Part shown: positions 213-54,875 of the stretch, piece after piece
How positions within the stretch are numbered: the first letter of the stretch is position 1
Layout: every line of letters begins with the position of its first letter
NCBI RefSeq assembly: GCF_030463565.1
Contig: NC_134646.1
Location: 19,573,296-19,637,295, forward strand
DNA from: Pelecanus crispus
Lineage: Eukaryota; Chordata; Aves; Pelecaniformes; Pelecanidae
Length of the DNA stretch: 64,000 nt
Direction: 5' to 3'
Notes under the pieces: model-generated
The model's database searches: none
Told to the model about the DNA's origin: nothing
What the model saw: the letters and a program-made list of their open reading frames with translations, nothing else
Program-made: the position numbers and the translations under genes

Positions 213-3200
213 CATTAGCAGCAGGAGTCTTCAGCATCTGTGGCTGTGGCTTTTTGACACCTTTTTCTATCCGTCTAGTGGCCCACTGTTGAAGAGAAAG
301 AAAACATTAATTTCACAAATGTAGTATTCACTTCAGAAAAAAGTCACTGAAAAAAGCAACAGGTTATGCAACAGTCAAGACAGGTTATGATTTTCAAAGA
401 GTATCTTCACCAGGTAATCATCATCCATCTTCCTCAGATGCATCCACAAACCCATACACAGTTCCTCTGAAGAAACACTGCCTCAGTGTATTTAATAATC
501 AAAAAAACCCTCTGTGCTAGTCAGTACTTCCCAACTCTGCTTGCCAGTCTTCAGAGAGCCAACTTGGTGCTCCACAGATGTTTCAGTTACAGTTCACATA
601 CACAGCCACCAAGAGCCCCACAGGCCTCCGTCAGACTTGCTACTTGCACACCAGCCACCAAGTCATGGCCACATGGGAAGCGCCAGGAGCTGAGCTAGGC
701 AACAGCCCCTCAGCAGACAACACAGGTTCACAGAGCTGACAGACATCGCCACTCAGCTTGTCTTTTCAGAGTAGCTTTACCATACTGAAGCAAAAAAGAG
801 TCCTAACTGGGTTAAGCTAAACTGAGGCCTGCACACAGCTAACTCTGCTAAATACCAAAACAGTATTTGCAGTCATGGGAAGTCTCATTTAAGTTCAGTC
901 TCAGTCCAAAAAGGACTGCACACAAGATTTTTTCCAAGCTGAACAAAACTGAAATTTCCCTTGACTCTGCTCATTTCTTGGCATTTTAGAGTTCTAAGCA
1001 GCAGAGAAACAGGTCAAATCACCAGCTCTAGTGTACAGCTGCAAAGAGCCCCTTCCCCTGCCCTTGGGAAGGGCTCCCAGCTCACTGGGGTTAACCTGCT
1101 CTTTTCTAGTGGGTGTGCTAGGAGAATGAGACTGAAATAGGTGATAAAGTAAGTTCCGCTCCCCAAGAAGTGTCAAAGCTTCTGAGCAGCTCTGCTCCCT
1201 GCAAACCCTTGTGACAGAACGTACAGCATCAGGAGACTTCCTCAAATTTCCAGCCCTGATGGGGCTGGAGCCAGTTTAACCTGTTCTCGGGCCAAAAGGC
1301 TTTCTTGACCTTCAGCTGACTCAGTTCCACACAGTCCTTTTAAACACCCCTTCTACCTCCTACGTCAGGCTTTATTTTTACTGGGTTACCGATTACACCC
1401 CCTTCACCACCCCAAAGCCTGCCCATGATGACAGAGTAGCCCTTCTGGCCTGGATTGTTCCTTTCTCTATGCGGCAGCTTTGCAAAGGGATGGAAAGCTC
1501 AGCCAGAGGACTGACTTTGTAGCTCCCCATTACGCACATTAATTCCTCCCCCATAAGATTTAATGCTATTTTTAGGAATACTGTCATAATAGGCATTTCC
1601 ATGACAGACAGGTGACCTGGCAGAAGTGAGCTCATATCAAAAGATCAGGGTATTATCCTGTTCAAACCTTAACAATTTACTCTCCAGTCCTTAAGCAGTA
1701 TCAAAGGCATACTTTGTTTAATAGCATACAGATGGTCCTCGCTGGTCTGCACAGAAAGGACCCAGACCAATGCTAAACCATGCAATTTCCACCCTCTCCT
1801 CCAAAAGACCTATGGGGCATTTGGGGATGCAGTTCTCTTTTGAAGGGTCAGTACCCTGACTCATGGCATTATCTCCACCACACAGCTTCCCAGACACAGC
1901 CAGGACTGCTTACTATATCAGGTCTCACTGAATCACAACCTACCCTGCCAATATATTTACTTGTTTTCTCAGTTCTGCTGCTGCTAAGGCAATAGCTGTT
2001 CCAGGAGCTAAGTTTTACCTGTAGGAGGTAACTCAGTACTTTCCGGCAACACATCATCCTTGGCAGTGCTATGGCTATAAAAGTTCTGGGAAATACCAAA
2101 ACAAAACATTGTTCAAGGAAGAAACTACTCACAATACCTTCATTTCTAGATATCTTGTACTAAATGGATTTAGGGTACAGGTAAACCAGCAAATACATTG
2201 ACACAACCATTCTCTGACCAGACTTGAAGCATGGTATTCAGTGAATGAAAAGCTCTGTAAGCAGGTAAGTCACTTACTACATAGACTAGAAAGAACATAC
2301 TTGGCTAATGGTCTCAGCCATATACACTAGCTGAGAAAAGTTTTCATCTTCCAAATCCTCTCAAATGGGTAATCAAAGCCTAACACTGCCACGTTTTGCT
2401 TTGCAAAACCTGGGAGAACAGTTTCCGTTTGGTGCTCAGAAAGAGCATGCAACACTCCCTTCACAATGCTCTTGCTACAGAAATCCTGCAGTTACAAGTT
2501 CCAGCTAGACAGTGTCAAAAAATTTGAACCTCAGCACAAGCCATGACAACACAGGCTACTGAGACACGCTTTTGTAATGCTCAAAAGCTTGCAACACCCT
2601 ATTGTACTGCAGTATCTTTTGACACTTTGCTGTGCAAAGGAAGCAGTGGACTCTTCCCAAAGCAGACAGAAATTACAGGGTCATGTAACCCAAGTAAGTT
2701 TCTACTGCTTAGGTGCATTTATCTACGCTATTCAGAAAAGTACATTCCTGCTTCCAAAGCAGTCTAACTTTTGGTCCACAGGTTCATCTAACTCCAGAAA
2801 GCTGCAGTACCCCACCTGGGAGATGAGGGGGACAGAACCAAAGAGAAAGACTGGAGAAGACAGTTCCCTTTGCCCTCTACCCATGCCTTCCCAGGAGATG
2901 GGAGCACTGCCACAAGCGTGACATCAGCGTGGCATCTTGTGCCAAGGTTGCACAGAGCGTTCCAGGGGACAGCTGACTAGTGCTCCACGAGTCAATAGTT
3001 GAGGCAGTTTTACTTTTGGTGCTAATCTCCCAGGGGATTTAAGCATGCTTCAAAAAACCAGCAAGGACAAGACCAGCTCTCTCTCTTGCTCCCCTCTTGG
3101 CCAGGAGCCTTTGGGCATTCATAAGGGCCCACATCTACCAGATACTACAGCAAAACAGTTTTAAGTCCTCTCTGTCAGCTTTCTCCCTCCCTCAATCCAT

Positions 3201-9200: not shown

Positions 9201-10298
9201 CACCAAGGATCCTGAAGGCACTGAAGTACATGAACAAGGTTTGACTGAAAACCTCATAGAACAAGATAAAATTATACAAGACCTACTTTCCACAGTCACA
9301 TGCTGATGTATACTGCATTGCCACAGGCTGTGCCTTGCATCAGTTTACTTTTCCTCCTTACAACTGTTTTGTTGCTTTGGGTTCCCCTCCTCCTTGGAAA
9401 AAGCATAATAAAGATTTAAACCAGATCATTTCCATCAGCCATTTTAAAACACTCTTCCTCACCACCACCATGAGCTTCAGAGGAAGCGTTTTCACACGCA
9501 TAGCAACTATGTTCCATCCAGAAAGCAGTTCCTTTGCGAGAAGCTCACTTTCCCAGAGACTTTCCAGGCAGATGGCGACTGAGATGCCGGACACGCTCGA
9601 CTCAGATGGGAGTGTGCATCTCTCAGCATCAGCACTCCTGGCACTTGCCGTCGCAGGCGCTGGGCACGCTGCCAGACATTTACACCCGCCAAGAACATGA
9701 CCCCGCACCACTTCTCTCAGGTGGCGAACAGCTGTCACCAAGCAGACACAACCGCGCCCAGGACACGGTACAGCCTTAGCTTCCCAGTCCCGGGCACGGC
9801 CTCAGGGACAGGAAAAGCCGTCCCCCTCCCCTCACACCCACCCGCGGGGCCGCCGGCGCCCAGGGCGCGGCTGGAGGCGGCGGAGCAGCTACGCTTTCTC
9901 CAGCCGGAGGGAGCCATGCCCGGCCGGCAGGGCGCCAGCGCTCCTCAGGACGGGGCACAAATGCGCCGGCGCCTCTGGGCGCTGCCGGAGAGGCGCAGCC
10001 CGGGGGAACGGGCCTAGCCCTCCCCGGGGTGCCCGCCGCCTCACGCCGGCCCCGGGGGACACCTCACCGGGGCGCCATTTTGGAGTCGCCCGCGCGGTGC
10101 GGCCCGGCGCCTGAGGAAGGGCGCGGGGCTGAGGGGACGGCGTCCCCCGCCTACCTCCAGCGTCTTCACCAGGACCCACATGTAGGCCTCGGAGATGCCC
10201 AGCGAGACGCCCAGCGCCGAGGGCACCACGATGAGGGCGAGCACCAGCGCCAGCCACACCGCGCCCACCCGCGCCGCCACCGACCCCAGGTCCTCCAT
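213..10298 (-). CDS. GPAT3: GPAT3, coding exons 1-2 only (glycerol-3-phosphate acyltransferase 3), rest beyond left edge
   Basis: Coding exon 1 is 10155-10298 (48 codons) and ends at a GTAGGC donor. Exon 2 is 213-285 (73 nt), between a CTTCAACAG acceptor and a GTGAGA donor. Exon 1 reads MEDLGSVAARVGAVW, a hydrophobic stretch at residues 14-31, then GVSLGISEAYMWVLVKTLE. Exon 2 begins WATRRIEKGVKK. Both match the known N-terminus of vertebrate GPAT3 (GVSLGISE, LVKTLE, WAT-RIEKG). GPAT3 acylates glycerol-3-phosphate to lysophosphatidate in the ER and supports triacylglycerol synthesis. The catalytic exons lie outside the window, so completeness cannot be judged. Exon 2 has the same length and phase as exon 2 of the copy at 23-40 kb. 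The start is the first ATG in a family-like context and sits just 3' of a GGC repeat. GPAT4 is less likely because its N-terminus is longer and different. Confidence 0.9.
6357..6385. repeat. Poly-G homopolymer, 29 bases
   Basis: There are 29 uninterrupted G on the plus strand (C on the GPAT3 sense strand) inside GPAT3 intron 1. Such a run is prone to length errors in sequencing and could form a G-quadruplex. Confidence 0.95.
8622..8700. repeat. AT-rich low-complexity stretch
   Basis: About 80 bases made almost wholly of A and T with short TATA and ATTT runs, within GPAT3 intron 1. No gene or transposon is seen in it. Confidence 0.6.
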
Positions 10299-10470: not shown

Positions 10471-10479
10471 GCTGCGTGA

Positions 10480-20734: not shown

Positions 20735-21773
20735 CTGGGTAAAAAACTGGCTGGGTGGCTGAGCCCGGAGAGTTGTGGTGAATGGAGTTAAATCCAGTTG
20801 GCGACCGGTCACAAGCGGTGTTCCCCAGGGCTCAGTTTCGGGGCCAGTCTTGTTTAATATCTTTATCAACAATCTGGATGAGGGCATTGAGTGCGTCCTC
20901 AGTAAGTTTGTAGATGACACCAAACTGCGTGGGAGTGTCGATCTGCTCAAGGGTAGGATGGCCCTGCAGAGGGATCAGGACAGGCTGGATCGATGGGCTG
21001 AGGCCAACTGTAGAGGTTTAACAAGACCAAGTGCCAGGTCCTGCACTTCAGTCACAACAACCCCATGCAATGCTACAGCCTTGGGGAAGAGTGCTGGAAC
21101 ACTGCCTGGCCAAAAAGGACCTGGGGTGTTGGTTGACAGCCGGCTGAACACGAGCCAGCACTGTAGCCAAGAAGGCCAACAGTATCCTGGCTTGTATCTG
21201 GAATAGTGTGGCCAGCAGGAGCAGGGAGGTGATTGTCCCCCTGTACTTAGCACTGATGAGGCCGCACCTCGAATACTGTGTCCAGTTTTGGGCCCCTCAG
21301 TACAAGAAGGACATCGAGGTGCTGGAGCATGTCCAGAGAAGGGCAACAAAGCTGGTGAAGGGTCTGGAGCACAGGCCTTATGAGGAGCAGCTGAGGGAAC
21401 TGGGGTTGTTCAGCCTGGAGAAGAGGAGGCTGAGGGGAGACCTTATTGCTCTCTACAACTACCTGAAAGGAGGTTGTAGTGAGGTGGGTGTCAGTCTCTT
21501 CTCCCAAGAAACTTGCGATAGGATGAGAGGAAATGGCCTCAAGCTGCATCAGGGGAGGTTTAGATTGGCTATTAGGAAAATTTCTTCACAGAAAGAGTGG
21601 TCAAGCATTGGAACAGGCTGCCCAGAGAGATTGTGGAGTCACCATCCTTGGAGGTGTTCAAAAAACGTGTAGACGTGGCACTTTGGGACATGGTTTAGTA
21701 GGCATGGTGGTGTTGGGTTGATGGTTGGACTGATGATCTTGGAGGTCCTTTCCAACCTTAATGATTCTATTCT
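20735..21773 (+). mobile_element. CR1 LINE, 5'-truncated 3' end
   Basis: This is the 3' end of a chicken-repeat-1 LINE. It carries the end of the reverse transcriptase and the C-terminal part of ORF2, with recognisable stretches such as PQGSVSGPVLFNIFINNLDE, KFVDDTKLRGSVDLL and [20 protein letters not shown]. It ends in the typical GGTTGGACT...GATCTTGGAGGTCCTTTCCAACC tail and ATTCTATTCT. The reading frame shifts near 21165: the first part is open to 21206 and the rest reads from 21208 in another frame. The copy is therefore dead. It is heavily 5'-truncated, as is usual for CR1, and its divergence suggests an old insertion. The left boundary is approximate. Confidence 0.93.
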
Positions 21774-21847
21774 AGTTTTACTTTCATTGTAAATAATCCA
21801 GCCACCAAGCCAGGAAACGAAATTATTACTCTACCCCTAATTAGTTT

Positions 21848-21930
21848 AGTGGTGGACTTGGTAGTGTTAGGTTAATGGTTGGACTGGATGATCTTAAAGG
21901 TCTTTTCCAACCAAAACAATTCTATGATTC
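21848..21930 (+). mobile_element. CR1 LINE 3' tail fragment
   Basis: A second CR1 3' end, only about 80 bases long, carrying GGTTGGACTGGATGATCTT, the CTTTTCCAACC block and the terminal ATTCTATGATTCT. It has the same orientation as the larger copy ending 75 bases upstream, so it is a separate short insertion or a duplicated tail. Confidence 0.85.
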
Positions 21931-23176
21931 TAACCCAGGGATGATACACCAGGCCTTGGCCATGGAAGAGGAGAGCTCAGTTCTGTGCCATGCAGCCTCA
22001 CCTGCATATCAGCTCTGTTAGCCCCTCCCCTGAATATTAGTTTTCTAGACTCTCCAGGACTGGGTAGTGTTCTATCTGTGCACCTGTCTTTCTGCAGGGT
22101 GTATTTGTGCTCACCATGACAGGTCCTCCATCTCTGCTGATACCTCAGTCAAGGGGCTGCTGTCATGTAAACTGTCCTTACCAACTCATCTGTCTTAAAG
22201 CAACTTGGGCAAAATAACACCTATTCGTGTGTGCTTCATTAGTAACATTCAGATCATTAAAGAAGCCAGATTCTTCCATGTGGGAGCTACTTAACAGGAG
22301 AGCAAATATTTTATACAAAGAAATGCTCTAGGTGACAAAAATATTCCCATCTCGGTTTCTGTAAGTGCACTTGCTCTATTTATTTCTGGAGGGTGGTCTT
22401 GTCAGAGAGGAAATCAGTAGCCTTCACATCAAGCAGTAACACAAGCAGGTCACATCATAGGTTTTCTTTAATTTGTGTAATCCATACAAACAGACACAGA
22501 AAGGGATATTGCAAAATCAGAAGACACAATATAATTTAAAAATATATTTTTCTACAATATTGTCCTTGGCTGTGACTAACTTATCCCAGCATCAGGGATG
22601 CACTGCCCTGGACACTGTTCTGCTGTTTGTCAGTGGGACCCTGGAAAACTTCCTATGTTGCCATCCCTGGCCTTGTGACATGGAGGGGAAAGTCAGAGAC
22701 TGCCTCTTTCCCTCTGACATCCAACACCTCCTCTCCAACTTGCAATTCAGAAAATGTATTTTGGTGAACTGCTTAATGTCTTCTGACATCAGGAGATATA
22801 TCTCTACAGCCACACAGTAACTGTGGCTCACAGGGAAACTGCTAGTCCAAGTCTTTGATAGAGGCTAGGAGTACAGAGATGTTACAAGTTAGGAAATTAC
22901 CATTTAAGTCTTCAGGGTAACACAAAGATTTAAAAAAAAAAAAAATAGTGTTTTAATGAACTTAAGTTCTCTCAACGTTGGAGAGAATTTTACTAGTATA
23001 TTGTAAATCTTTCTATTTATAAAATTATATCCTTATTTAATACAAAATAATACCTGCTGTGTCATATGCAAAACATCTTACTGGGACAGAAGGAAAATAC
23101 GTTGGTTTTAATATAAAAAATAGCCCATTTTCTGGTGGAGATAAGTCATGGAAAAATGAGATAAAATAAATACCAT
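21931..23176 (-). other. Downstream flank and probable 3' UTR of the GPAT3 paralog
   Basis: On the minus strand this follows the stop codon of the GPAT3-type gene. A possible ATTAAA signal lies about 140 bases after the stop (23036-23041) and an AATAAA at 22379-22384. Which one is used cannot be told. No other gene is seen. Confidence 0.4.
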
Positions 23177-26100
23177 TTAACAAACATTTCTGTTTCCCAC
23201 AGATCCACTTCCTATAACTATCTGGCAATATTTTTTCTGTTGCTCTTCCTTGAAAGAATCTTCGACATTTTTCCTTTTCAGTCCCCCATCCCTGAAAGAT
23301 ACAGAGAAGAAACAGCCTTGAGCTCACTTCAGGGTCAAGGCAGAAAAATGTTACAGTGTTTAGACTATGTAGTCAAAGCAGTTTTCACCCTAAATGTTGG
23401 CTTTTGCAATACAATGCTAAATGATCTGTACTGCCAAGACTTACCACACAACACAAACAATGCCTTTCCTTTAATGCAGCATTTCACAGGTGAATAATTT
23501 ATTTTTACCAGATACTACCTGCTGGCTAGATCCACCTGTCAGCTGTTTCTTTTTTTATACTACATTAGTCTATTTATTCTAGTGGAACTATTCAGGGAAT
23601 AAAATAATATTTTCTGACTCAGAATCAATAAGGGTGATGGACTACAGACCAAGCAAAGCAAATCTGGAAGAAGTTTTAAAAGATTCCAGGCTAATGTTTC
23701 AGAATACAGAACACCTAGATATGCCTTAAATCCAACCTCAAAGGCATTGCTTCTTACCAAGGAAGCACAGACATTCCTCCCTGAGCAGCAATGACAGCCT
23801 TGACTCTGTTGGCAAAGTGAACAGCATCTTCTCCTTCCTGAAAAAAATATATGAATGATTTGCTTTGCAACTTAAATATTTTCTTCATGTATCACTTAAA
23901 GAGATACTTTTTGTCAGACAGCAGGCAATTGGGTTTATGCCAGGTCCACAAGCCAAATGCGACCTGCAGGGCAGTTCCAGCTGGTCCTGGGGAATGCTGC
24001 CTGGTTTCCCACCATTCAGTTCCGAAAAGAACTGAGTGGGAGGCTCTGTGGTTTTTGGGGCAAATCTCAAACAACACATAGCGTGAGGTCACAGGTCTGG
24101 CCAGAGCAGGGATGCATCTGCTCCCAGTACTTCGGTACCAGTCTGAAGTTGGGAACACACTGAAAGGATCACCCTTGGAGGGGATGGGGCACCTTAAACA
24201 GCATTGGGGCCTGGCGCATTCAGGATCAGTGAATTATTGTAAGTTTGCAGGAGTCTGTTTGCCTGAACTGCAGAGGACTGAAAATACATGCATTACAGCA
24301 GCTTCCCTGCCAAGACTAGGGCTGAGCAAAAACCAGGGCAGGCAGTACCAAACCGGAGCATTGCTGGAGCAAAGGCCTTGACCACTTTGTCAGCATTAGG
24401 TCGATATCTAGGGGCAGCTGGGTGAGAGGCTGTGCCAGGTTGTGGGATAAAGCTGCTGGGCAAAGGATTAGCTGGATATTCTGCAGGGCTGAGAAACAAA
24501 GAGGTAGGAGGAAGCTGTGCAGCTGGAGGTAGAGCGGGGGGACACAGAAGGCAGAAGTGCATGGAGTGAAGAGACAGCCCAAATGACTTCTGTGTAAAAA
24601 AGGAAGGTCTGTGCCAGGCTGAGGGGCAGGACTCCTGCACCATAAAACCACATTTTAACATCTCTTCTAGTATCTGGCAGCAGAGGAAAGCAAGGCAGCT
24701 GCACCCAAGTAAAGCAGCTGTTTGGGAGCAATAGGGAGCATGGCACAGAAATGTCTGAATATCTGCAAGAATTGTTTTTACCTGAAGGTAACGAACCCAC
24801 TTAAATCTGTGCTCACTTAATTTTAAGACTACAGTGTTACTTTCTGGCCTTTGTCCATTAAGTTGTCAATAAAGATTCACAAACATAATGCCAACACCCC
24901 GTGCGTAGTAACGCAGGCTTCCTCCCAGACAACATTTTATGAGCATTTTCAAAACATACGAAAGCGTGAGTACCTCTTTGACCATTGGTGGCAGGTACCA
25001 CACATTACAGACAATCGCCCAGCTGGTCATCACGTTAAAAACATGTGTCATGATGGAATACTTTGTGCTGTTCCAGAACGCATCCCCAAAGCGGGGGTCA
25101 TACTAGAAGACAAGAAGAACAAGTGAAAGGGCATGATCTGCTACCTTAGTTTAAATCACATAAGCAGCTCTTTTTTGGCCACAAAGTCACAGTTCAAACT
25201 GTTAAATCCAGAGCAAATCTAATCACACCTCCTAAAAGCAGCAGTAAATTCAGAGTAAAGCTCCACATTGCAATGTTTATTACAAATTTATAACAGTTAA
25301 CCTTCATCAGCAATGCAGGAATCCAAACTGTGACAGACCCATTGAAACACATCTCAACTATAACAAGACAGACCTACCCAAAATGTAAAGGCTTGTCATC
25401 TATGGATATGCTGACTACAAAGGTTTCCTTGAAAACACTCACACCAGTTTTAAAAATCCATAAGATTAGGCAACATTATACTTTTTCTGAAACTAACTAA
25501 TGTATCTAGGGCTAGGATGACTTGGCTAGAGCTACTCAGAAAGCCTTGAAAGTGCCAAGAAAAGAGCCTGAAAAGGCAGGCAGAACTGAACACGCAGCAC
25601 AGCAATTGCACCGGTGCTTTTCAGGTTGCTCCTAACCAGCTGTAAAGATACTCGGTGAAACATTTCCCATACTGCACTGAACTGCAAGACATTTCACACC
25701 ATGAAAAGATTCTGTTTTCTCAGGGCTTATTCAGTACCTTATTCACACAGAACAAACCCCCTTTTAAGGTTTACACATGAACAGCTTCTCTGACATGAGA
25801 AGCTTCTGCAAATAATCTTCCCACGTTTGGAAAACTGCAGATACATTACCTTGATTGCTACTGGATGGATGGTCCCTCCTACCTCAAAGCTACCCTTCTT
25901 GAACATCATTACTGATGTGTTGTTTATGCAGGTACCTGGCCAGAATTAATACAGATGAAGAGTTTAATCCACTCTAAGAAAAGTAAATGAATCCTAAACT
26001 GTCTTAAGGAGACTTAAGTTGCTAAAGGAGAAAGTAAGTTTTGATTCTGAAGCATAATCCCAGAACCTGTTCTCTCTTCTGTTATGCTATACACCAAAGC

Positions 26101-29100
26101 AAATAGACTGTCATAAAACTGTTGTAAACACTAGAATCTGACTTTTGATATCTCACAAGAGCTAATTAATTCTACAGACTGAAAACAAACACCTCACTTG
26201 GAAAGACTGTGTATAATAAACTGTACTCATCAGCAACAAGTGAGAAGAGCAATAAAATCAATATAGTTGTGTCCTACCTTCTGGGAAAATTAAAATGGGT
26301 AATTTGGCCTTATCTGCAATGTGTTCTCTAATTCTGTGGAGAGAAAATAAGATTTCAGTGTATACTTCATATTTGTATTTGGCCAAGAATCTAAACATTC
26401 GTTACCTCTTACATAGGACAAGAAAAGCCCTTGCCCAATTGCCCTTTCCCAGTCAGCAGCCTCAGCCGGGATGTGTGCTAGTTTCAGGCCTTTATCTCAG
26501 AGGTTATCTCTTACTAATTGCAAAAGTAGGTTTTCTATAAAACTGTATGCAGTTTTATTTCACCATTTTAACCCAATTAACACAAAGGCAGAGAATGGTG
26601 GTATCTGAAGCGTGTAAAAATCACTTCTCATTTATCTTTGGCAGGTTCCAGCTATGAACACAGTCAAACTTTTCTTTTGACTGAAGTATAGTCTGTATTT
26701 CAAGTTTTCATGCTTTCTAGGTTCATAACATCAGTTTTATATGTATCTAATGATCCTCTGCATCTACTTAAGAGATAGGCCACTATTTTACTACATTTGC
26801 TGCATCACTTAAACAAATGTATTACCACTAAGCAGATTACTGACACACAAAATCTGTTGTTTTCCGAGACACTTGTCTTTCCTATGACTCAAGAGCATGC
26901 AGTTCCTCTCCCATCCACATTAAAGAACAAAACCAAAACATCAGATATCAAAAAAGGAGAGAATGATCCAGCATGGGAGAACCTTCTCCATTTTTCTAAG
27001 GACAAACTGTCATAGACACTTACTTAACATGAGCTTCATCACACCCCATTTCATGAAGGTTCAGAATGACTAAGAACAGTCACTGTAAACACCCGAGAAT
27101 ATACGAGCTGCCATACTCAGTCAATCCTGTTCATGTCCTTAAAGTCCAACATGCTGTCTCTGCCAGGAATCAATACTGCAGGCCTGGAGAGCAGTATAGG
27201 CATTAAGCAAACATATTATGACACTTCTCCAGTATGCTCGTCCAGCTTCTAGCAGCTAGGTGGTACCTTGGTCTTTTTTTAATTACTTTTTTTTTTTTTT
27301 TTTTTCTTTCTACAAACAGCCTCCCTTTATCCAGTAGTCACAGCAGACATAACCAGCTTCGATGCTCAGAGCTGATGAAAAACATACCAGGGCAAGGCAT
27401 GATCTGGGAAGCAGATGTGCTGACAGAACTCTGATTTCTGGCCTGATATCCCAAATCATCAGCCTCAAAACAGAATGAACAGGGTCCCCGCCTGTGACAG
27501 GCAGGGCGATTGTGGCAAGGTGGAAATTCCCAGAGGTTACAGGGAAAATGATCAAAAGTTCAGCAGATGATTGCTCCACCCTGCACCTTCATTGATGGAG
27601 CAGTTCCAAACCTTACACTGATGACAACCTAGAGCTGCCCACCAAAGAGAGATGCAGGGTGAGGACAGTCTCAACTCACGCTTGGACCTCACAATTACTA
27701 GACCTGATGGGACAAAAGCAAACACCTCACTACCTTACTTTTTCCTCACCAGATGACGGTCTTTCATTTCTGAGCGTTCAAAAAAAACATGCTGAGTGGT
27801 TTGCATGCAAGTTTTTTGAATAAGTCCCAGAATCCCTCTGTGTGCCTGGCCAACCTGCAAGCCCAAAAGAAACTGGTTACTATGCAAACTCACACACACT
27901 TAAATGATAAAATTCTGAACACAGATGCATCAGTTTCTAAGCTTGTTCACAAATTATACCAATCCTCTTGGTCAAAAGTGCACATACACCTGCCCGTGCC
28001 TATTATTTTGCAGTCCTGAACGTGAGTTTGAATGCTATCAAATCCCACTCTTTCTACCAGTAAGTTTATCCTCTTACCCAACACTACATCTATGGGCATC
28101 TCAACATTACCAATATTTACCAACTCTCTTGTACATACCAAGGAATAGCATCCATCACTGGCCAGGATTAGAACATCTAGTGGAGACGTGTGGTTGGCTA
28201 CACAGATGCCTCCTTCCCGCGGTCTGTTTTCCCTGCAATGAAAACCATAAAAGTAATTACTTAATGCTTATTCTCCAGACTACGGGCCCGATCAGGTGAC
28301 CCACCCAGTGAGCATACATCCACAATCGAGACTCTCTGTGACAAAAGCATTTCAGGCACACAGCTTATCTACAGATCCATAGGAAGTGGAAGAACACAAA
28401 ACATTTTAAAATACTAATATTACTATAATATACGTTAAAACTTCTGGCAGTACGTTACAGCAAATAAGTCATCTTTCCTCATGCTTTCAAGAGTCCCTTC
28501 ACATTTCAGTAGTTTTGGCATTTCACCAAAACCAGTTTCTTTTTAGCTGAGAATACGAGACTTCATTGGAGTAGGCATTTTAGCTGCATACATTACCATT
28601 CATAGAAGCATATATCAAAGAGCATTTGGACACTAAAATTCTAAAAGCAAAGACACTAGAGCATGATTTTGCTTGTTTTCTAAAGGACAAACAAAAAAAT
28701 ATTTCAGAAGCCTCCATTACATAAAACTCCACCACTAACCAAGCAAGATATTACAAAAACTTACTGAAATACCATCCATAACTTGCTTTAGGAAAGAGCA
28801 TGAAGAATTAGTTACCAAGCAAATCAGCTAATAGAACAGCTGAACATTTTATGGCGATGTTCTTGCACATGATTATAACGCATTCATGGCAAACATTGAG
28901 AAAAATGTCTACCTGTATATTTAACCAAGAATACAGTACTACTACATTGTTGCATACCCTGCCAATACACAACAGAAAACACAGTAGGGCATGCAAACAT
29001 CATGATGGAGTCTAGGTGATCCAAACAGCTTCTTGGATCAAATTGCACCATCATAGTATCTGTGCAGTAATGGAATAAGAATCCCACTCTGAAACTTGAG

Positions 29101-32100
29101 ACATTGAGTACTGTAAGAAATCAATACCAAACCAGCAAGAGCAGGGTGGCACCACTCACCTGTTGTGGAAATGAACAATACCACCCAGACATCGGAGACC
29201 TAATGTGGCACATATCATCTGAACCTGGTTGCTCAGCCAGCATTTAACTCTAAAAGAAATGAAGCCATATATACATTTCCAGTTCTATGTAGTCACTCAC
29301 AGAACAATGTAATGTAAACTCTCCAAATTATTCCCCAAAGCTGTTATTACAAAGACCATACTAAGAGGATTCTTTGCACTAACAATGCCATGCAGGAGGA
29401 GCTTATCAGGTATCAAAGATAGTCCTGTTCCATTTTTCTACTGTAATCTATTCTAAACCCCCTAGATTCAAAGCAGAGAAGGTAATAGTCAGGGTTTTGT
29501 TTTATACATTTTCTCTGGAAGCAACTGTTATCAACCCATGCATTAACATTAATTTAATATAAAAATATTTAGCTGGTGAATCACATTTGAGGGTTTTTTT
29601 GCACTGACAGGACATAACAATCTCACAGTATTAATATGGAATTGCTCAGGACAGATGATTAACTTGCCCTATTCTGACTCAAGTAGAGCATACTCTATTT
29701 TCCACTCTAAAACATGCTTCCAGCAGTATCTATCTGGCTTACACTGCATGACTGCATGTCCACTTTCAGATACCATTGCCATACTCTTTCTCATAGTGCT
29801 CTATGAGTTCACAGCAGAGAAAAAGTCACCCCATGATAGTCCACATTAATCCTCCAGACTCAAGCAGATTTATATTCCAACACACTACTTCAAATCATTA
29901 AAGAAATAAAAAAGAAATGGGAAGAGTGCTCAGCAAACACCTACCTGCCATTTGGAAACTGTCCTACTACCGTAGTGGCCAAGAGCAGCAAGAGGATGCT
30001 GAAAACAGCCAAGCAGACACTATGAAGTAAAAATTCTTAATTAAATGCTAAGAAGCAAAACTGGAAAAGCAAGCAAGAAAATATTTTATTTAACCCTTTA
30101 TCCATTTCACAATGCTTCCCTCCACCATCAATAGCATCTAAACTAGCAATACAGCAGTTAAGGCCAACAGGAGCACATGTTTTCACTCAATTAATCCTGC
30201 ACTGAGTACAAAGCCTCATGATGCCTGGAGCTTAGCTTCTAAAAAGCACCACACCCTGATCTGAAGCTATCACGCAGTAAAGCAGCTGTGTGTTCAAAGA
30301 GGACAGCAAGTAGTGGCTAGCGTTCTTTAATGCAGGTAAGATTTCTCAGTACCAAAAGGGACTCATAATTTCATTTTTAAAAACCTATCCAGAAATTTCA
30401 GTACAGTAGTAAACTACTATATAACCATGAAAATTAAATGTCATTGGTTATTAATGGCTGAGCAAAACCAATCTTGAAGCCATTTCTACATAAGTGTCGT
30501 CTCCTTAAGCTGCATATCTAAGTTTACACACAGGCATATGTACTCTGCTATATGACTGAGCGGTATGAAATCCCTCTATGCAGTGCAGCTATCTTTTAAA
30601 TATACTGTCTCCCCATCAAAGGAATAAGAAATTTTAAAAGCTCTTGCTCTTTACAAGAATGCATGAATATTTGTAACTGGTCAATATGATAAAGGCTGGT
30701 TTTGCTTAAAAGAAAATTTTAAAAGTCTGAAAATTTAATGCATTCCAAGTAGATGTCTCTTTTTTCCATGATGCCCTGTCCTCCCTGAACATTGGCTTTG
30801 CTTCAAGTCTCAGGTGTTCAGCATACAGTCTCCCTGTCTCTTAGACAGGTAGAGCCTGATCCTTTCAGTTGAAACAGTTGTTACTTTACATAACAAAAAG
30901 ATCTCCAGATCATTTCTGTAAAGTTTCTCTGGATTTTAAGAACTAATCAGTTACTAATAAAACATGCAGAACATGAGAAACATACATCTTCAGCACCTTT
31001 TCTTTTTTTTTTTCTTTTAGGGATATTTAAGTTTCGATGGCATCTTAGAGAACAAAGTCATGCCAGGTTCTCCTTTCTGCACTAGTCAATAGCATATTAT
31101 TTCACATCTTTTGTAAAAAGTAACAAGAAAAACAGATCCCAGCAAATTACATCTGGCTCACCGAAAAGGCAGCAGGAGGCAATACCGAATTAAGATCCCA
31201 ATGACCCACACAACCGTTAGTTGCCAGCTGACATGGTGCAAGTTGGCATCGGTTCTGCTGAGGAGATTCCAGGACACCAGCTCCTCAGAGGAGAACCGTT
31301 GGGTGACTTCGTCTTCTGCAACTGCCTCACACCCCTTCTTGGAGAAGTACATAACATCAGCAAGGTCAAAGCATCCTCGGCGCTGGACAGCAATCTCCTG
31401 TTCCATGGAGGTTTCCTCTCTCTGGATAATCCCTACATGAGGAAATGAGTATGCTTTCCACACAGAGGAATGGACAATATGGATTACAAAAAAAGTAAAA
31501 TACACATGCTTTTTAGAAATAGCTCTCCTCCTACTCCAAGCACCATAATTGCATTGTTATGCCTCATTTACATACTGGCATTTAGTTCCACAAGTTACTT
31601 CTCTAATCCTATGCCATATAACACCACTAAATTTTTTAGGAAAGGAGAAAAGCATTCAGAGCAAGCTGCAAATAAAACCTTGAGCACAACACCTACTCCA
31701 TTGTCATTTACCAAACACCACATGACACACACCTACAAATGTCAACAGTGCACTACCAAGACTGCAGACCCATCCTAGTGCCTTGACTCAAATTCAGGCA
31801 GTGTTTGTATAGTTATTGTTCTTCCTGCTGTTGATTAGTTTTACCTTTTCCCAGCTGTAACAAACACTTTCCTCCCCCCCCCCCCCCAAGTCTTCTCTCT
31901 TCCCCCATCCTTTCTCCTTTAAGAGTCACTTCGTTACCAAGAGACTTCAAACTGTCTAGATTTTTCCCCCCAAGATATACATAGTGTAACACAGAAGCAT
32001 TGTGCAGGAAGAATGACAACACATTCATGCTCCATATCTGTAATTAGGCCTCATAGAACGGCCACACAGCAAGTCTGTGATGTTTGCTGAGGTCACTCTG

Positions 32101-35100
32101 AGACCAGATTCTTATCTGGCTCGTTACAGTGACTAAGATGGTATTGATTCATACCAGCTAACACATGGCTTTTTTGTCGTGTGTCGTCCCCCCCCCTTTT
32201 TTTTCCTGGGGTGGGGGTGGCGTGGTATTGGATGACATTAAATATGCATTATACAAAATACATTTCATTTATCTTAATCAACATACTACCCCCTGATCAG
32301 AAGATCAGAATCACAAAACTCTCCTTCATCTGCACTTCAGTCAAATCTTCAACACCCAGGAAATCAGACCTGAAATTCATTAACTGACAAACCAAGCAGT
32401 CTACATGACTGATGACTGAAAATGGCACTACAAGTAAAAGGATTATTATGAGAACTTAACCCAGTCCCCTTCAGTCAAAGAAGAAAGGAAAAATAGCTGG
32501 GAAGAGAAAAAAAATAAAAAATTACTCTCTCAGATTTTATCCCCATGCCCAGAGAAGAGTGCAAGTTGTAACTGTAATCTGTGGGATGGTGTAGCTCCTT
32601 TGCTTGAGAGACCCTGGCTTTTTGCGTGCTAGGAGTTAGAAGAAGTGAGAGAATCCATACAGAGCAGTATCAAGGGCAAAGAATACTCATTCCTCTTAAA
32701 CTTGTGAAGAGAGAGCTGACTGAATCAGAAAGTACAAAATACTCACGAAAATGGGGACAGCTTCCCAAATGCTTATGAGCAATGTCCTTCTATACTCACA
32801 CTAGTCTCTCAACACCTTTTATTCAGAAGACTCAATCATTCACAGATTATCTTGCTTATAACATGCTTAAGATCTCTTTTGTAGGTTTGTAACTTCAACA
32901 GTTATTTGCCCATCAACCTCCATTTTGGCCATTCCAGTTTCCTTACTTAATATCAGATACAATTTATGTTTCCATTTACTCTTTTCTAGGTAAGATATTA
33001 AAATACTTGCTTTTTTACAAGACAAATAGTGCTGTGTCACCTTCATTCAGAGATCTTACCAGTGGAGATTAAATTTTCAAGTGCCAGCGCCTTCTGCTTT
33101 TTTACTCCCTCCTCAATCTGCAGGGTGGCCCACTGTTCCCAAAACAAGAAAAGTAGATGTTGATGGGTTTCATTTCATCATTTCCAGGCATTCTGCAATT
33201 ACCTTAGGTGAATTGCCTGAGCCTCTTTTATTGAAGCCAGGTCTTAGATTTTCATTTTTCAAATTCAGCCTGAAGGCTGTCCTGCATGCCTCCTGTTTCA
33301 TTTGTTACATAGACTACCTTTTGCCATTTTCAGGAAAAATTGTTTGGCTCATACTTCTTTTCAGGACACAGGCAGCTGTTTTTTTCCTGGGGCCCCACAA
33401 ATTACTGAGCTACCTAAGAGACTGTGTGAGGTCCACGGGTCCAAAACTCACTCTTCCCCATTTAGCTTCAGGCAATAGAATGTTGCAAAATACTATCACT
33501 GGCATTAGAGACGTGCTGGAAAAATAGATCTAAAAATAGGTTTTAAAGAATAAAAGAGATTACCTCAGTTTTAGGGCATTCATGCAATTTCTGTTAACAG
33601 AAAACAAGAGGGACTATTTTGTATCCATGAGTATTTCTGGAGTAGTAGGTTTGGTAATGAGCTTTCACCCTTTCCTCTCTTTACCTTTTTGAGTTTCTCC
33701 TCCCCACACAGAGCGGCATAATACTCCTCCATGAGCAAAAATCAAATATACTAATATGCCTACTTTTTGAAGTTTTCATAGCTTTGAATGTTTTCATCAT
33801 ACATATGTAGACATATAAACAGTAGCTCTTGTGAGTATTAGATCTTCCCGTGTTTACGTCAAGATATCTGCCCTAATAAAGGACACAGGATGCTTGCATG
33901 TAGGCTCTGCTCATTATTAAGGAACCAATGACCCACTCAGCTTACGTTCTCACTGCTATTAAGGCTTTCCACCTACAACAGATAAGGATATATCTTTCTG
34001 CTTCAGGATAAACTCTTGCTAAGCAGTTTATTTCCCTCTTACTGACATGTGCAGCCATTTAAATCACCACAAAGCTTGATCTCAAATAGTCTTCACCACG
34101 TTACAACATGTTGCATGTGCCAACAATTACTAGTTTTTTGCCATCCTTAAGTTCTGTGTGCTCTCTACCAGCTCCTTCTGTAGCTATTGAAGTTTAAGTC
34201 AATAACAAAAACGGGACACTTTATCATGGCATAATTAGGATACTTTAGTTACCCTTAGTTGACTTTTTTTTTACCAGCCATCTTAAGAAAAGAAAAAAGA
34301 GAAAGTAGAATATGCAGTGATGTGCTATTTTTAAACTCCATGCAAACCATCGATTATAACACCATTTAAGAAAAAAAAAACCCCACAAACACAACAAAAA
34401 CCTTCACCTTATCTATACTTTCCAATTATTCCATAGGAAAGGTCAACTGGTACATCACCTGTCTCAATCTTTTGCAACACATGGAGAGTCATTCAGAGTT
34501 GGGGAGCCAGGGGCTGTCATGAAAACAGCAGCCTATGCACTGAGAAGTGAATGAATACATGGCACAGGAACAAGAATGTTGCAAAAGAGAGTAAAGGCAG
34601 ACGTGTTGCAAACTTAACCTCTTTATAACGTACTGCTGGTCCTCATCCCTCCCCCAATATTCTTCAGGATAGCTGTATGGCATGAGGGAGGCAAAAAATA
34701 AAAATTGCCTAGCTTGGCAAATAAATCTCTTTGCCTTACTCTCTGCTTTCCTGTCTCCTATCTTATCTCCTGTCTCCTCCCTTATCTTGCCCATCACAGT
34801 CCTCCTATGTGAACAGGCACCTGCCAGTTGGCAAGCACTGCCAGAAATGAGCTTGCTCATACTGTCCTGAAGGATTTGGAATACCTCAAGGAGGCTGGCT
34901 TTTGAACCCCAGGCGGAAAAAGGGTGATAATCACTGACCAAGCTGACTCACAAAAACATGTTAATTCAAATGAGCAAGACAAGTCAAAACCAACAAAAAA
35001 TTATCAAGTTTACTAGTAAAGTATAAAGTCTGCCTCATAGCACAGAGAAACAGTGGAACAAAAGTGGTAGCCTGCAATTAATAGTCAGTCAAGGCTACAA

Positions 35101-38100
35101 AGGCAGAGAACAAGGCAGATAAGGAAGAGTTTTCAATAGGTGAACGGTTACCCAGGGCTTGTTAGCTTGGAAAAAGAGCTGGCTGAGACGGCATATGACA
35201 GAGGTTTACAAAGTCTGGACTGGCACAGAGCAGGTGCATAAGGAACAGTTATCTGTTCTTTCCTAGTACAAGAACTAGGGAGCATCATATGAAAGTGTCG
35301 GGCAGAGTGTGTGAGCAATAAAAAGGTAATATATTTCCACAAAACACAGTTAAGTTGTTGAGTTCATTGTCCAGCACATATTGCCAGAGATCATCTGAAA
35401 TGGGAGCAGTTACATAAAAACATGGATGAAAATCATCATGGGACACAAAACTCTCCTAATTCGAATTAATGAATCGGCACAGGAGGCTGAAGCAACAAGT
35501 AGCTGGGAGGGTATTCCTGGCAATACGGCCAAACAATCACCCAGCTCTTAGGCTTTCCATCAAGCAATTGAGTTGATGCCTGTCAAAGCCAGGCGATCTG
35601 TCTGGGTCAGACTCTGGACTGACCCAGCAGAGTAGTTTCTATGTTGTTCTGCATTCGGTGGCATCTGTACATTTAATTTGTTTTTAAAATATGAAATAAG
35701 GCTTTGTGATTGCCTTTGTTTTGCACAGTATTGAGACAGAGCTGTCATGCCGGTCTTTGTTGCAAAACACTAATGAAAGGATGTTTTAAATGCCTTACAA
35801 AAATGCAGATGTTGCAACTAACACAGAATTTAAGTGTTAAATGGAGCAACTTCATTCCCAAGTTTGCTGACTGAATGAGAACTCAGGTGCTGTGCTTTCC
35901 TCCCTCCCATTTCTGAAGTGATGAGGACACAAGGAAGCCAAACATCCAGCAGGTGATCCCAGCTGGAATACTGAAGACTTGACAGTTTAATTCCAACAGC
36001 CCATTTGTTTGAGGCTTCCTATAATTACATTCTGAACAAAATAAGAGTGCCTAATACTTAATTACATTAATTACTTTCTTCATAGTACATGACATGAAAA
36101 GCTATACAATATGGAATGTTCATTTTTAAAAATCTCACTTCTTGTGTTTTTTTCCCCTCCCTTTTTCCTTTTAAGTACAGTTCAGTGTGTTGTTCAGTAT
36201 TCCATTTTTTTGTACTGTGTAAGAATTTGGTTTTGGCCTCTCTCCCTCTTCCCATATTTTACTACCTCTTCCATGTACTCACAGAAGCTTTTTCTAATCA
36301 CTCATTACACTGGCTTTTTTCAGTCCTCTTCTTGGCTTTGTTCTCATGTGTGACAAAGGCCTTGGGGCAATTACTCCATGTAAAGTCTTCCAATATAATT
36401 ACAAAGAGAATGTCAGTAGGTTTTTAGTGCAAGCTAAAAATCACCATCTAAGATCAAGCACTTATGACCTTTTCATCCAATTGTCCTTTCTCTCTGACCT
36501 CATTTCCCCTTTCACATCCCAAACAAGAACCCAGATCAAATTATCTGCATATTACATAGCAGGTCTGAGAGAATGTGTAAGCAGTAACTGTCCACAATCA
36601 GACAGTGAAAAGCACTCACAAATCTCCTGGCTGCTCTAGTGAGGGCAGATGAAATAGGTTGAGAAGGGTCCAAAACAAATGTTTGAGATAAAAGCACAAG
36701 TATCATTTCTTTGGTTTTTGATGCAGTGGCTAGTCAGGATAACCATGTATTTGAAAGCACAGCAGTGAGCTGCTTCCACTAGTTTAAGCATCTGCAACAT
36801 CTGCCCATAATCCAGTGAGAGTTTACAGCATATTAGCTACCTCAATGTACAAGTGAGCTATCAGTTCAAACAATATCCACAATTATTACCTGGCTGATGT
36901 CTTTCCTACACGTCAGTATTTCTCAAGAAACAATGATACTCCAATTTCATACAGAAGTTCAGATCTCATAAAATTCCAGAAGATTCTTGGCAAATGGAGC
37001 TACAGCTGTTTATCATGGGTTTTTTGACTCTCCACAGGACTGCGAGAGTATGGTGTAGATTTCTTTCTAGCAAATGCATTTTCTTTTGCAGCTGCAGCAC
37101 TAAAGAGCTGGAATACTGACCCTAGCACAACTTTGCTAGTATCGTCATAACCACCAAACCCCATTACAGACAGGCAAATACAAAGCTTAGAGAAAACACA
37201 TTATTTCACAAATAAAAGCTTACAAGCATACGGGAAAGAATAACCCTATTGGAAACCAAACCAAGTTAATCTTTATTATTTCCAGAAATATTTTAAGGCT
37301 AAATGAATGGTAATAATAGTAATTACGTAGTATGCAATTGAGAAATTACTGTCTTGGAGATCTTTAACTATTATACTCTCTGTATGTCCCCAAAAAAGAC
37401 AAAACAAAAGGAAACACACCACCAAAAAGCCCAAACCCACACACAATCACGCCCCCCCAAATTTTCAAACCTTGAATCTTGCTTTTGTAAAAAGGTTTCT
37501 TTTGTTTCTAAAAACCAAGTACCTAGATTCTGTGATGGAGAAGCAGCAAAGGGTATGAATTCTTTCCATACATATATTACATCTAGCCCGTTTGTACCAG
37601 TCACTGTTCACACTGCTAAAACACTTCAGTAAAGTCAGGAAATCAAAGTCACTTATCTCATCATATGCCACCATTACTCATTGCTTAGTAATAGATCTGC
37701 GAGCTTGGGCTTTATCCTAAAACACCTAGAGCTCCCAGTAATTCAGTAAGGGCTACAGATATGCTTTCTTTGAAAACACAACTTTGAAAAAGTATCTTTT
37801 GACCTTAAAGTCCTTGATTTCAGTCTCTACTCTTATTTTTCTCAAATTGACAAAACATGGCAAAAAATAAAGCATTTTCCCTCTGCCTCCCAATTTGCGT
37901 AGTCATTTACACCTGTAAGAAGCAAATATGAAGTGTTCTTAGGTGGTAAGTTTTCTATTAATTTTGCTGGTCTACATAACAGACTAAATCAAATATAACA
38001 CAGTGGAGAATCCAGTCATAGTGCTCGATGTTGGATTTTTGGTGAAACATCAACCAGTTGGTTGGTACTTCCTAGAGCACTGATATTCCTGCAAAATAGT

Positions 38101-40475
38101 CAGTGGTGTGCTAACACAGGACTAAGAACCTGCTCTTCGCATTTTCAGCATAGCTATCTCGTAAGGCATCCTATTTCACCATTCAGGCTAACAACTGGAA
38201 CAAAGGATAGCCTTTGTGCATTACCCCGTTACCAAGATCTCAGGTAGATAATGGCACAGCTAGAAAAAAGTTGACACTGACAGCCTAGTGAAGCGCCAAG
38301 TTGTTCATTTCTTGAACAAAGGGTGCATATAAGCCTGTTTTAAAGCTAACCGTATCCCAAGCAGCAGTTTCAGCCATATTCTGGTGAATGAGCCCCAGTA
38401 GTCCAAGAATGGGCCCAGCAATTGTATGTACAAGCTTTAACCGAGCATTTCCTGGCCTACCCCTACTTCCAAAGAGCCAAATGGGCCACAGCACAAGCAA
38501 AGAGGACCTAACATTCCCTCCACCCTCCCTCCCTCCCATTTCCCACCAAGATAGCTCTTAGTTACTCTTTTGGCAGGATGAGAAGCATTTGAACAATACT
38601 TCAAAGAAAACAGCTGAAATTGATCGTAAGATGAAGACAGAGGAAACTCCGGTTTTGCCCACAGGACAATTAAGGAACAACTTTCAACTAAAGAACAAAA
38701 CAACTCAGCCTGGGCTTCAGCACATGGAGCTGTGCTCTTCCTGTTATTAGCTGCTGCGGCAATGGGGAACTAGACATAAAAAGCTATGTCTGATCACATA
38801 ACTATTAACTTAATTACTTCTTTTTTGATAAATTAATCCTCCTCATTGTGAACACAAAGTTATCATGCTCATAACCTGTTACAAAAACAGTGGAAAGAAA
38901 AACATTTAACATGGTTTTCCAAAGAGAAGTGCCTTCCTATGTAAAGCACCCACTGAGTGAGTCAAATGCCCTTCAGAGTTGTGAAATGACTTGGGGGGAG
39001 GGTGGGGGGGAGGAATACAGAAATTACTTTAATGTCTGCCAACTACAGCAGCAAAGCTGTCCAAAGACCTCCTCGGGTTTGTGTTTGATATGAGAGAGCC
39101 TGATGAAATCAATTCCAAGTACCACAAGCCTCTTACTTAGGGTACCAATAAGAATTTAATTAGCATACAACTGGCTGATGAAAAAAGTATCACATATGAA
39201 AGCCAATATTACATATAGCCACTGCAGGCAGTCACTTCCCATTGACATCAGTATCTGAAAAAACAAGGAACCCCTAAAGTTTGCAGTCACATGCACTATG
39301 CTAAACAATGTTCATACAGCTGAAGAGAGTCCCTGTCCAAGAGCTCTTAATCAGTATTTACAAGAGACATAAAAATTATAAGACAAAAATAAGAATTGGC
39401 AAGGCAAGATGGTCATGGTATTAACTGTATCACATTATTACAGACACATTCTATTGCACAAATAGATGGCTCTAACAGCTTAATAACAGAAACAATACTA
39501 GTAATAAATTTTCTGCCACAAGTAGAAAGTATATTCATGAAAAGCAGGTTTATGCCAGAAAGACAAAGTTAGTTTACTGGAAAACAGAAATGCTTCACTG
39601 TTCAATATGATGAATTCACAGCACCTACTTTTGGCCACTGACAGATGTGAAAAGTCAGACTTGAAAAATTAAATGCAATTCTGGCTTATTAAAAGCCCCA
39701 GAAAACTTTTACTGATATCAGCAGAATCAGGATCTTAGCCATGACCTGTTCATCTCTAGAAAAATTACACTTTTAGAAGGTTGCACAGATTCCTCAAGTC
39801 TTGTACAGCAGAACTTATGACTGCTGGATCCCCCAGATTTATAACTGGAAGAAGCAAACACACACAGTCAGTATTCTTACCTAGAACAGTACTTATTAAT
39901 ACCATGTAATTAAAATAATCCAAATAAAACCATTGAAACTTAAGTAACAAGAACAGGTATTTTAGATGTACCTACCAACTCCCATAAACTAATACATCTT
40001 TTTATTTGACTTGTCATGAGTATACTATGAAGTATTTTAACCAGCTTGAACTAGAAGCAATATATCATGGAATCTCTACTTTAACACAAGAAAACCTCAA
40101 ACCAATACCAGATCATAACCCAGCACATAACTAGATATCACTAAAGACACCATTCAAAAGAACTGTCATGTAAATTAAAGTTGCAGACAACACATCCAAG
40201 TTAATAGAATTCTTTCTGCTGACTTTTATGATATCTATATCAAATGTACAGATTTTTATTTTTTTATTAAACCTGTCCTGTAGTAAACACATACCTTTTT
40301 AACTCAATTCTCAACTTACCTCTAACATTTTTATTACAATTCTCACATAGAAATGAGAAATCCCCAATGGCACTCTAATCATCGAAGGCAGCAAAACTAA
40401 TACCACAAACAAAATCGTCCAGACAGACAAAATCTTGCCCCCTGCAAGGCCGTAGCCCTCTCTATCTTCTTCCAT
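23177..40475 (-). CDS. GPAT3-like tandem paralog (glycerol-3-phosphate acyltransferase), complete, 12 coding exons
   Basis: Coding exons, 5' to 3': 40320-40475, 33060-33132, 31162-31432, 29945-30019, 29160-29249, 28139-28232, 27739-27854, 26278-26333, 25850-25935, 24974-25102, 23758-23837, 23177-23291. All junctions are GT-AG and in phase, giving 446 codons (human GPAT3 has 434). Residues 19-34 are hydrophobic, and 148-188 hold a membrane-associated pair of segments. Acyltransferase motifs are NHTSPLD (235-241, with catalytic His236 and Asp241), FERSEMKDR (278-286), FPEGTC (308-313) and HPVAIK (334-339). Family blocks such as DEVTQRFSSEELVSWNLLSR and KKGSFEVGGTIHPVAIK are present. The expected activity is acyl-CoA:glycerol-3-phosphate acylation at the ER. 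The start codon has A at -3 and G at +4. The N-terminus (LAGGKILSVW) and residues 254-275 differ most from GPAT3. It is intact in sequence, but expression and activity are unproven. Confidence 0.92.
27287..27305. repeat. Poly-T run, about 19 bases
   Basis: A long T homopolymer in intron 7 of the GPAT3 paralog. It is a simple low-complexity tract. It could be the A-tail of an old minus-strand insertion, but no element body is recognisable. Confidence 0.7.
31874..31887. repeat. Poly-C run, 14 bases
   Basis: Fourteen consecutive C on the plus strand in intron 2 of the GPAT3 paralog, reading G on the sense strand. Low complexity only. Confidence 0.85.
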
Positions 40476-41061
40476 TCTTGCTCCTTCAAAATGGCAACCT
40501 GCTGTATTTCTGAGAATATAAGCTCATCTGTAGTGGAGAGTCCAGCAAGCTTCAAGAGACAGAGGCAAATAAAAATTATACATTCTAAGAGCCAAAGCTG
40601 TCTCCAGGAGAAGGCTGCTGCCCTCTGAAGCCTGATACCATAGATGCTCTCAATGATAATGTCATTTCTACCCCTTGTCCCACCCTAACTCCACCCACTT
40701 CCTTTTAATGGATGAGCATTTACTCACCAGATATAATACATGGGGGAAGAAAGAAAAAACGTGATAAGTAATAATATGTTAGGTAATAAGATGCTGCCAA
40801 TAAGGAAACTTGTCAATATGTCAACTAGTTTTCACAAGGCATCCCACCAATAAACTACAATACAATACCAAGTAGGTATGGTTTTCAGACTGCCTAAAAT
40901 CTTCTCTTCTAAAACTCATTTAATACACATGAAGCACTTCTCCAACTGACACTTCCTCAAATTAGTGACTGACTTAGAGTTTCTACTGGATGGTGAAATG
41001 ACTGTCTTGTTTTGGTATTTGACCAAGGGAACCAAAGTGAAGCTTGAGGTGCAAGTCAGAC

Positions 41062-48528: not shown

Positions 48529-54875
<6,347 letters not shown>

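Follow-up and report, generated by a model that had tools for sequence, protein, structure and literature searches.

Glycerol-3-phosphate acyltransferases (GPATs) carry out the first step of glycerolipid synthesis, which is considered rate-limiting (PMC6726641), and four mammalian isoforms are described (PMC8753187; PMC4207751). In the excerpts of PMC4207751 considered, the split between GPAT3 and GPAT4 is vertebrate-specific, and no further vertebrate paralogue is named. For birds, the available sections of PMC6726641 report a single AGPAT9/GPAT3 in a survey of chicken gene families and a single GPAT3/AGPAT9 in hen liver, and excerpts of PMC3610128 and PMC10249823 report the up-regulation of AGPAT9/GPAT3, again as a single gene, in pigeon crop. 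Among the matches listed, the titles and abstract openings of the open-licence literature describe no adjacent second GPAT3 in birds or reptiles. In this study, we analysed a 64,000-nt stretch of Pelecanus crispus DNA, called the window below (assembly GCF_030463565.1, contig NC_134646.1, positions 19,573,296-19,637,295), which holds two GPAT3-type genes in tandem, copy A and copy B. We believe that copy B stems from an old tandem duplication of GPAT3, has been retained as a third eGPAT next to GPAT3 and GPAT4, and most likely encodes an acyl-CoA:glycerol-3-phosphate acyltransferase of the endoplasmic reticulum (ER) membrane; the probability that we give to this reading is about 0.68. An automatic 'GPAT3-like' database model for copy B may well exist.

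The window was joined to 80 kb of left flank and 60 kb of right flank, and both genes were built on the minus strand of the resulting 204-kb region; negative window coordinates lie in the left flank and coordinates above 64,000 in the right flank (Table 1). Copy B is a GPAT3-type gene of 12 coding exons (40475-23177, minus strand; 1341 nt including the stop codon, 446 aa), with no in-frame stop, GT-AG at 11 of 11 introns, and a stop codon in frame 51 nt before the ATG. Copy A also has 12 exons and 446 aa; it starts at 10298 and runs past the window edge to -11719. Exons 2-11 of the two copies are equal in length and phase (73, 271, 75, 90, 94, 116, 56, 86, 129, and 80 nt), exon 2 of both is in phase 0 with W-A-T as its first residues, and the two proteins align without a gap over 437 residues, of which 259 are identical (59%) and 178 differ. 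An earlier note on this DNA had described a tandem pair in the same orientation with a shared 73-nt exon 2 and a second copy free of in-frame stops, and the gene models agree with it: its coordinates and description were correct, both genes are complete, and the frame of copy B is intact across its 12 exons. Exons 3-12 of copy A, whose absence would have made the pair look like one rearranged gene, were found in the left flank. Intron 1 of copy A contains an unbroken run of 29 C on the minus strand (6357-6385), a possible site of misassembly or polymerase slippage.

At the protein level, the PF01553 (Acyltransferase) profile matched copy B at an E value of 2.9e-28 (98.8 bits, cut-off 23) and copy A at 8.3e-29, and the hydrophobic segments of copy B, near the N terminus and around residues 144-190, lie as in copy A. 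The motifs were compared with the consensus of 25 eGPAT sequences and with the inter-motif distances in Table 1 of PMC4207751. Copy B agrees with the consensus in motif I (H[T/S][S/T][P/phi]phi D; HTSPLD, residues 236-241), motif III (FPEGTC phi NN; FPEGTCINN, residues 308-316), and motif IV (phi x P phi A; IHPVA, residues 333-337). Its motif II (phi[W/M]F[acidic/N]R x) reads VFFERS (residues 276-281), in which the Arg, the Glu, and the following F are kept and F stands at the W/M position; it passes only a relaxed pattern that allows this F, whereas VWFERS of copy A passes strictly and all four motifs of copy A match the published consensus. The claim of the earlier note that copy B keeps all four acyltransferase motifs thus stands for motifs I, III, and IV, and fails for motif II when the match is strict. 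In both copies, 34, 26, and 16 residues separate motifs I-II, II-III, and III-IV, against printed distances of 36-42, 23-27, and 18; in either gene, two of the three disagree with the published figures, a mismatch that probably stems from a different way of counting the motif ends. The pentapeptide GLIQK, tried as a motif II with an R-to-K change, was dropped because the published eGPAT motif and the PlsC alignment put motif II at VFFERS, with the Arg kept. Motif 2 of human GPAT3 is given as residues 268-271 in the available part of PMC8753187 (Table 3), which read HVWF on the human sequence used here.

The only distinct PDB sequence that matched copy B at E <= 0.1 was PlsC of Thermotoga maritima (5kym, E 0.0076). 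The HxxxxD pair, the Arg of motif II, and the FPEGT loop align, with VFFERSE of copy B over VFLDRKN of PlsC, although PlsC is only remotely related, being a bacterial lysophosphatidate acyltransferase that uses another acceptor. The closest likeness is to GPAT3 (AGPAT9), with which copy B has in common the locus, the orientation, the 12-coding-exon plan with the lengths and phases of exons 2-11, the PF01553 domain, motifs I, III, and IV, and the hydrophobic segments. It is 59% identical to the adjoining orthologue and differs from it in motif II, in its C-terminal tail, in the lack of a CpG island at exon 1, and in a segment between motifs I and II that is described below.

Copy B reads, from these comparisons, as a maintained but fast-evolving gene. 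The two copies differ at 130, 80, and 208 of 437 first, second, and third codon positions, and four methods gave a pairwise nonsynonymous divergence (dN) of 0.25-0.27 and a synonymous divergence (dS) of 1.2-1.9. The protein branch of copy B (0.59-0.62) is 3-4 times longer than that of copy A (0.15-0.17). A codon model of three genes, in which the two copies were given equal synonymous branches, returned a dN/dS ratio (omega) of 0.12 for copy A and 0.31 for copy B; fixing omega of copy B at 1 was worse by 31 log-likelihood (lnL) units, with the GPAT4 branch lying at the limit imposed, and equal omegas were worse by 14.6. In a neutral simulation from the frame of copy A, 15, 1, 0, 0, and 0 of 1000 sequences stayed free of stops at 0.1, 0.2, 0.3, 0.43, and 0.6 substitutions per site, and 13 to 79 indels were expected (at an assumed 0.1 indel per substitution), whereas 0 stops and 0 gaps were seen over 437 codons. 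The intact frame is unexpected under neutral decay, and this evidence is independent of omega. Conservation is also patterned: identity to copy A is 83% and 93% in exons 8 and 9, where motifs III and IV lie, and 36% and 38% in exons 1 and 5. The view that copy B survives as a protein-coding gene, already put forward from the window alone, is supported by the intact frame under large divergence and by this pattern.

The age of the duplication was estimated from both protein and synonymous changes. Birds and mammals split 319 million years ago (Mya), and a protein clock scaled to this split, by arithmetic on branch lengths, gave about 270 Mya if copies A and B are sisters and about 405-435 Mya under the other two trees. 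The internal branch is 0.028-0.039 in all three trees; because it is always short, the duplication falls near the bird-mammal split whichever tree holds. Synonymous divergence was 0.65 per lineage (interval about 0.52-0.83, from a drop of 1.92 lnL units on the profile), and 57 of 111 four-fold sites differ (Jukes-Cantor distance 0.87 in total, 0.43 per lineage). The avian synonymous rate is about 2e-9 per site per year and modern birds are about 100 My old; at this rate, the synonymous date is roughly 200-415 My. These estimates suggest that the duplication took place approximately 200-430 million years ago, well before modern birds. Gene conversion in exon 3 was considered for its low four-fold divergence (9 of 26 sites differ, against 48 of 85 elsewhere), and was not significant (p 0.07).

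The earlier note had suggested that copy B could be a lineage-specific avian enzyme, a reading under which it would be a duplicate born within birds with very rapid divergence. The long branch of copy B shows that it is indeed fast, and the tree with copies A and B as sisters was not rejected (lnL -3061.98 against -3061.09 for the best tree; p 0.402 in the four-taxon approximately unbiased (AU) test). However, even this sister tree puts the duplication at about 270 Mya, and the synonymous divergence per lineage, whether 0.52-0.83 or the 0.43 of four-fold sites, exceeds the value of about 0.2 that about 100 My would give at the avian rate. We therefore regard an origin within birds as unlikely, and protein and synonymous divergence alike date the duplication far before modern birds. 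Since an old tandem paralogue would be much older than modern birds, relatives of copy B should occur in other reptiles. If the duplication is older than the bird-mammal split, a loss in mammals would also be expected.

Which of the two copies corresponds to the mammalian gene was examined by identity, by trees, and by gene order. Copy A is 79.5% and copy B 62.0% identical to the unverified human GPAT3 sequence used, and we take copy A to be the GPAT3 orthologue by identity; the tree alone would also allow the reverse assignment. A whole-genome search with copy B (1.31 Gb, 310 contigs; the best candidates were scored, 33 of 33, and the locus count is a lower bound) found at least 25 exon matches, of which 12 are copy B, 7 are copy A, and 6 lie at a third locus on contig C21 (319961-324402). 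This third locus is a complete GPAT4 (AGPAT6), with 434 of 455 residues identical to the unverified human GPAT4 sequence used. It belongs to the same subfamily as copy B, and its exons 4-11 have the same lengths as in copies A and B, but it is a separate gene that is 56% identical to copy B, and placing copy B inside the GPAT4 clade, as sister of bird GPAT4, was about 86 lnL units worse. The ABRAXAS1-like gene starts at 48529 on the plus strand and COQ2 lies near 109.2 kb, also on the plus strand, in the right flank; copy B therefore stands between GPAT3 and ABRAXAS1, and by mammalian gene order these neighbours put the pair in the GPAT3 locus. At the corresponding position, mammals presumably have a single GPAT3.

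The three placements of copy B on the tree are nearly equal. The lnL was -3061.47 with copy B outside copy A and human GPAT3, -3061.98 with copies A and B as sisters, and -3061.09 with copy B as sister of human GPAT3, a spread of at most 0.9 units (ultrafast bootstrap 42), and the AU p values with four taxa were 0.475, 0.402, and 0.566 in the same order. Site patterns grouped copy A with human GPAT3 at 12 sites, copy B with human GPAT3 at 8, and copies A and B at 5. Under these three trees, a count of 5 or fewer for copies A and B was simulated in 469, 337, and 471 of 500 runs, and this count was the lowest of the three in 186, 67, and 315 of 500 runs. Under each of the trees, all three observed counts (12, 8, and 5) are above the simulated means, and the conflict in the data is thus greater than predicted by the model. 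Under hidden paralogy, copy B would be the true orthologue of mammalian GPAT3, and copy A a paralogue lost in mammals. The tree that joins copy B to human GPAT3 is the best by 0.4-0.9 lnL units, 8 sites agree with it, and copies A and B had the lowest count most often when it was simulated. These lnL differences are nevertheless at noise level, with AU p values of 0.40-0.57 for all three trees, and overall identity to human GPAT3 is much higher in copy A; we think hidden paralogy rather improbable.

Several observations weigh against copy B as an old, retained GPAT3 paralogue with enzyme activity. The human GPAT3, GPAT4, and ABRAXAS1 sequences used for comparison are unverified versions. The tree is unrooted, and the placement of copy B outside copy A and human GPAT3 is identical to its placement as sister of both GPAT4s, so copy B may have branched off the GPAT4 stem, or may predate the separation of GPAT3 from GPAT4; an origin on the GPAT3 side is favoured by its tandem position and by its identity, which is higher to GPAT3. 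The smaller divergence at four-fold sites gives a younger date of about 200 My. When equal synonymous rates were not imposed on the codon model, lnL was -4058.5 at an omega of 1 for copy B and -4059.6 at 0.3, and the two are not separable because the synonymous sites to GPAT4 are saturated; the 'free' optimum was incompletely converged, as the run constrained to an omega of 1 was 0.15 higher. The dN/dS check proposed earlier for the 12-exon model thus points to constraint with a shared synonymous clock, and does not distinguish copy B from neutrality once this clock is removed. Motif II departs from the consensus of the 25 eGPATs, and exon 1 of copy B has no CpG island (CpG observed/expected 0.17 over 40200-40900). 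As a matter of speculation, transcription of copy B might begin at a non-coding exon further upstream, possibly one within the CpG island of ABRAXAS1. Finally, given the single AGPAT9/GPAT3 of the chicken survey, as far as its available sections go, some birds may lack copy B, or it may have been overlooked.

Some of these points would also fit a decaying gene, recently relaxed or silenced, whose frame is intact by chance or recency. The protein branch of copy B, 3-4 times that of copy A, an omega that cannot be told from 1 when the clock is dropped, the missing CpG island, and the changed position in motif II are all in line with it. Against this stand 12 of 12 intact exons and 11 of 11 GT-AG introns, without a stop or a gap despite the large divergence, and the contrast of exons 8 and 9 with exons 1 and 5, as expected from selection on the active site. 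We consider decay quite improbable. An assembly artefact or collapsed haplotypes can be dismissed as practically negligible, since 178 of 437 residues differ between the copies and the nine blastn matches between the gene regions (E up to 0.01) are eight exons and one 57-bp CR1-type repeat, with none in an intron.

As an old, retained paralogue of GPAT3, copy B would be expected to work like its relatives. The His-Asp pair of the HxxxxD in motif I would catalyse acyl transfer from acyl-CoA to glycerol 3-phosphate, motifs II and III would hold the phosphate, and the lysophosphatidic acid produced would feed phospholipid and triglyceride synthesis. Copy A and the human GPAT3 and GPAT4 sequences used here have the same residue at 274 positions, and copy B departs from them at 69. 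The segment at residues 252-277, which lies between motifs I and II, has 24 such positions with 14 changes, against 55 changes in the 250 elsewhere (Fisher 3e-4); this segment was picked after looking, and in scan-corrected permutations 211-324 of 5000 were as extreme, depending on the window width, a borderline outcome. In the same clustering scan, the figures, each out of 2000, were 148 for GPAT4-specific, 468 for human-GPAT3-specific, and 1971 for copy A-specific changes. The clustering in copy B is little stronger than that in GPAT4, and as a lead for a changed acceptor or acyl preference it is suggestive only. Changes just before and within motif II may shift acceptor or acyl preference or regulation, a weaker inference than those above. 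The difference in acyl-CoA preference or tissue use raised in the earlier note may likewise apply. In a wider proposal, which we hold tentatively and with the odds somewhat against it, amniotes would ancestrally have had three ER GPAT genes (GPAT3, GPAT4, and a fast 'GPAT3B'), mammals would have lost one of the tandem pair, and the bird version would have had the pocket beside motif II remodelled for another acceptor or acyl chain.

Judged by its sequence, copy B is a real, complete, and old paralogue that adds to a known enzyme family. A third ER-type GPAT in birds, if true, would change the reading of avian lipid work. Where both genes exist, probes or reads for avian GPAT3/AGPAT9, for example in pigeon crop milk or hen liver, could mix two enzymes. 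Copy B may also serve as a natural experiment on which residues near motif II tolerate change when the catalytic core stays constant.

Table 1. Exons of the two GPAT3-type genes and the neighbouring synteny anchor, in window coordinates
Feature	Position	Strand	Remarks
Copy B exon 1	40320..40475	-	156 nt, phase 0, start codon at 40475; donor GAG/GTAAGT
Copy B exon 2	33060..33132	-	73 nt; length and phase as copy A exon 2
Copy B exon 3	31162..31432	-	271 nt; 57/89 aa identical to copy A
Copy B exon 4	29945..30019	-	75 nt, hydrophobic
Copy B exon 5	29160..29249	-	90 nt; among the least conserved exons, 11/29 aa identical to copy A
Copy B exon 6	28139..28232	-	94 nt; motif I HTSPLD
Copy B exon 7	27739..27854	-	116 nt; motif II VFFERS and the changed segment preceding it
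Copy B exon 8	26278..26333	-	56 nt; first part of motif III; 15/18 aa identical to copy A
Copy B exon 9	25850..25935	-	86 nt; end of motif III FPEGTCINN and motif IV IHPVA; 26/28 aa identical to copy A
Copy B exon 10	24974..25102	-	129 nt
Copy B exon 11	23758..23837	-	80 nt
Copy B exon 12	23177..23291	-	115 nt including the stop codon
Copy A exon 1	10155..10298	-	putative GPAT3 orthologue by identity; within CpG island 9401-10900
Copy A exon 2	213..285	-	73 nt
Copy A exons 3-12	-5072 to -11719	-	left flank, outside the window
ABRAXAS1-like gene	48529..54872	+	found with a human ABRAXAS1 probe; synteny anchor beyond copy B; CpG island 47901-49200

Downstream of copy B, there is a CR1-type repeat of about 1.2 kb (20746-21932), which is about 88% identical to copies at 68608-69781 and 113385-114577. 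Its open reading frame at 21151-21546 (plus strand) resembles, by eye, the tail of a CR1 reverse transcriptase. The 57-bp element found 3' of both genes (-13611 to -13555 for copy A, 21877-21932 for copy B) was considered as a conserved 3' element and rejected, as it is a repeat that recurs in the 204-kb region and is CR1-type by eye.

The 40-aa peptide of the first exon of the ABRAXAS1-like gene had no Pfam match. Beyond this gene, a strong CpG island lies at 57301-58800 (GC 0.645, CpG observed/expected 0.93), which may be a divergent promoter for the two genes that follow, taken here as HELQ and MRPS18C by synteny. In the right flank, a further CpG island (81701-83500) includes a long low-complexity stretch whose translation consists of repeated GK, RQ, or FA dipeptides.

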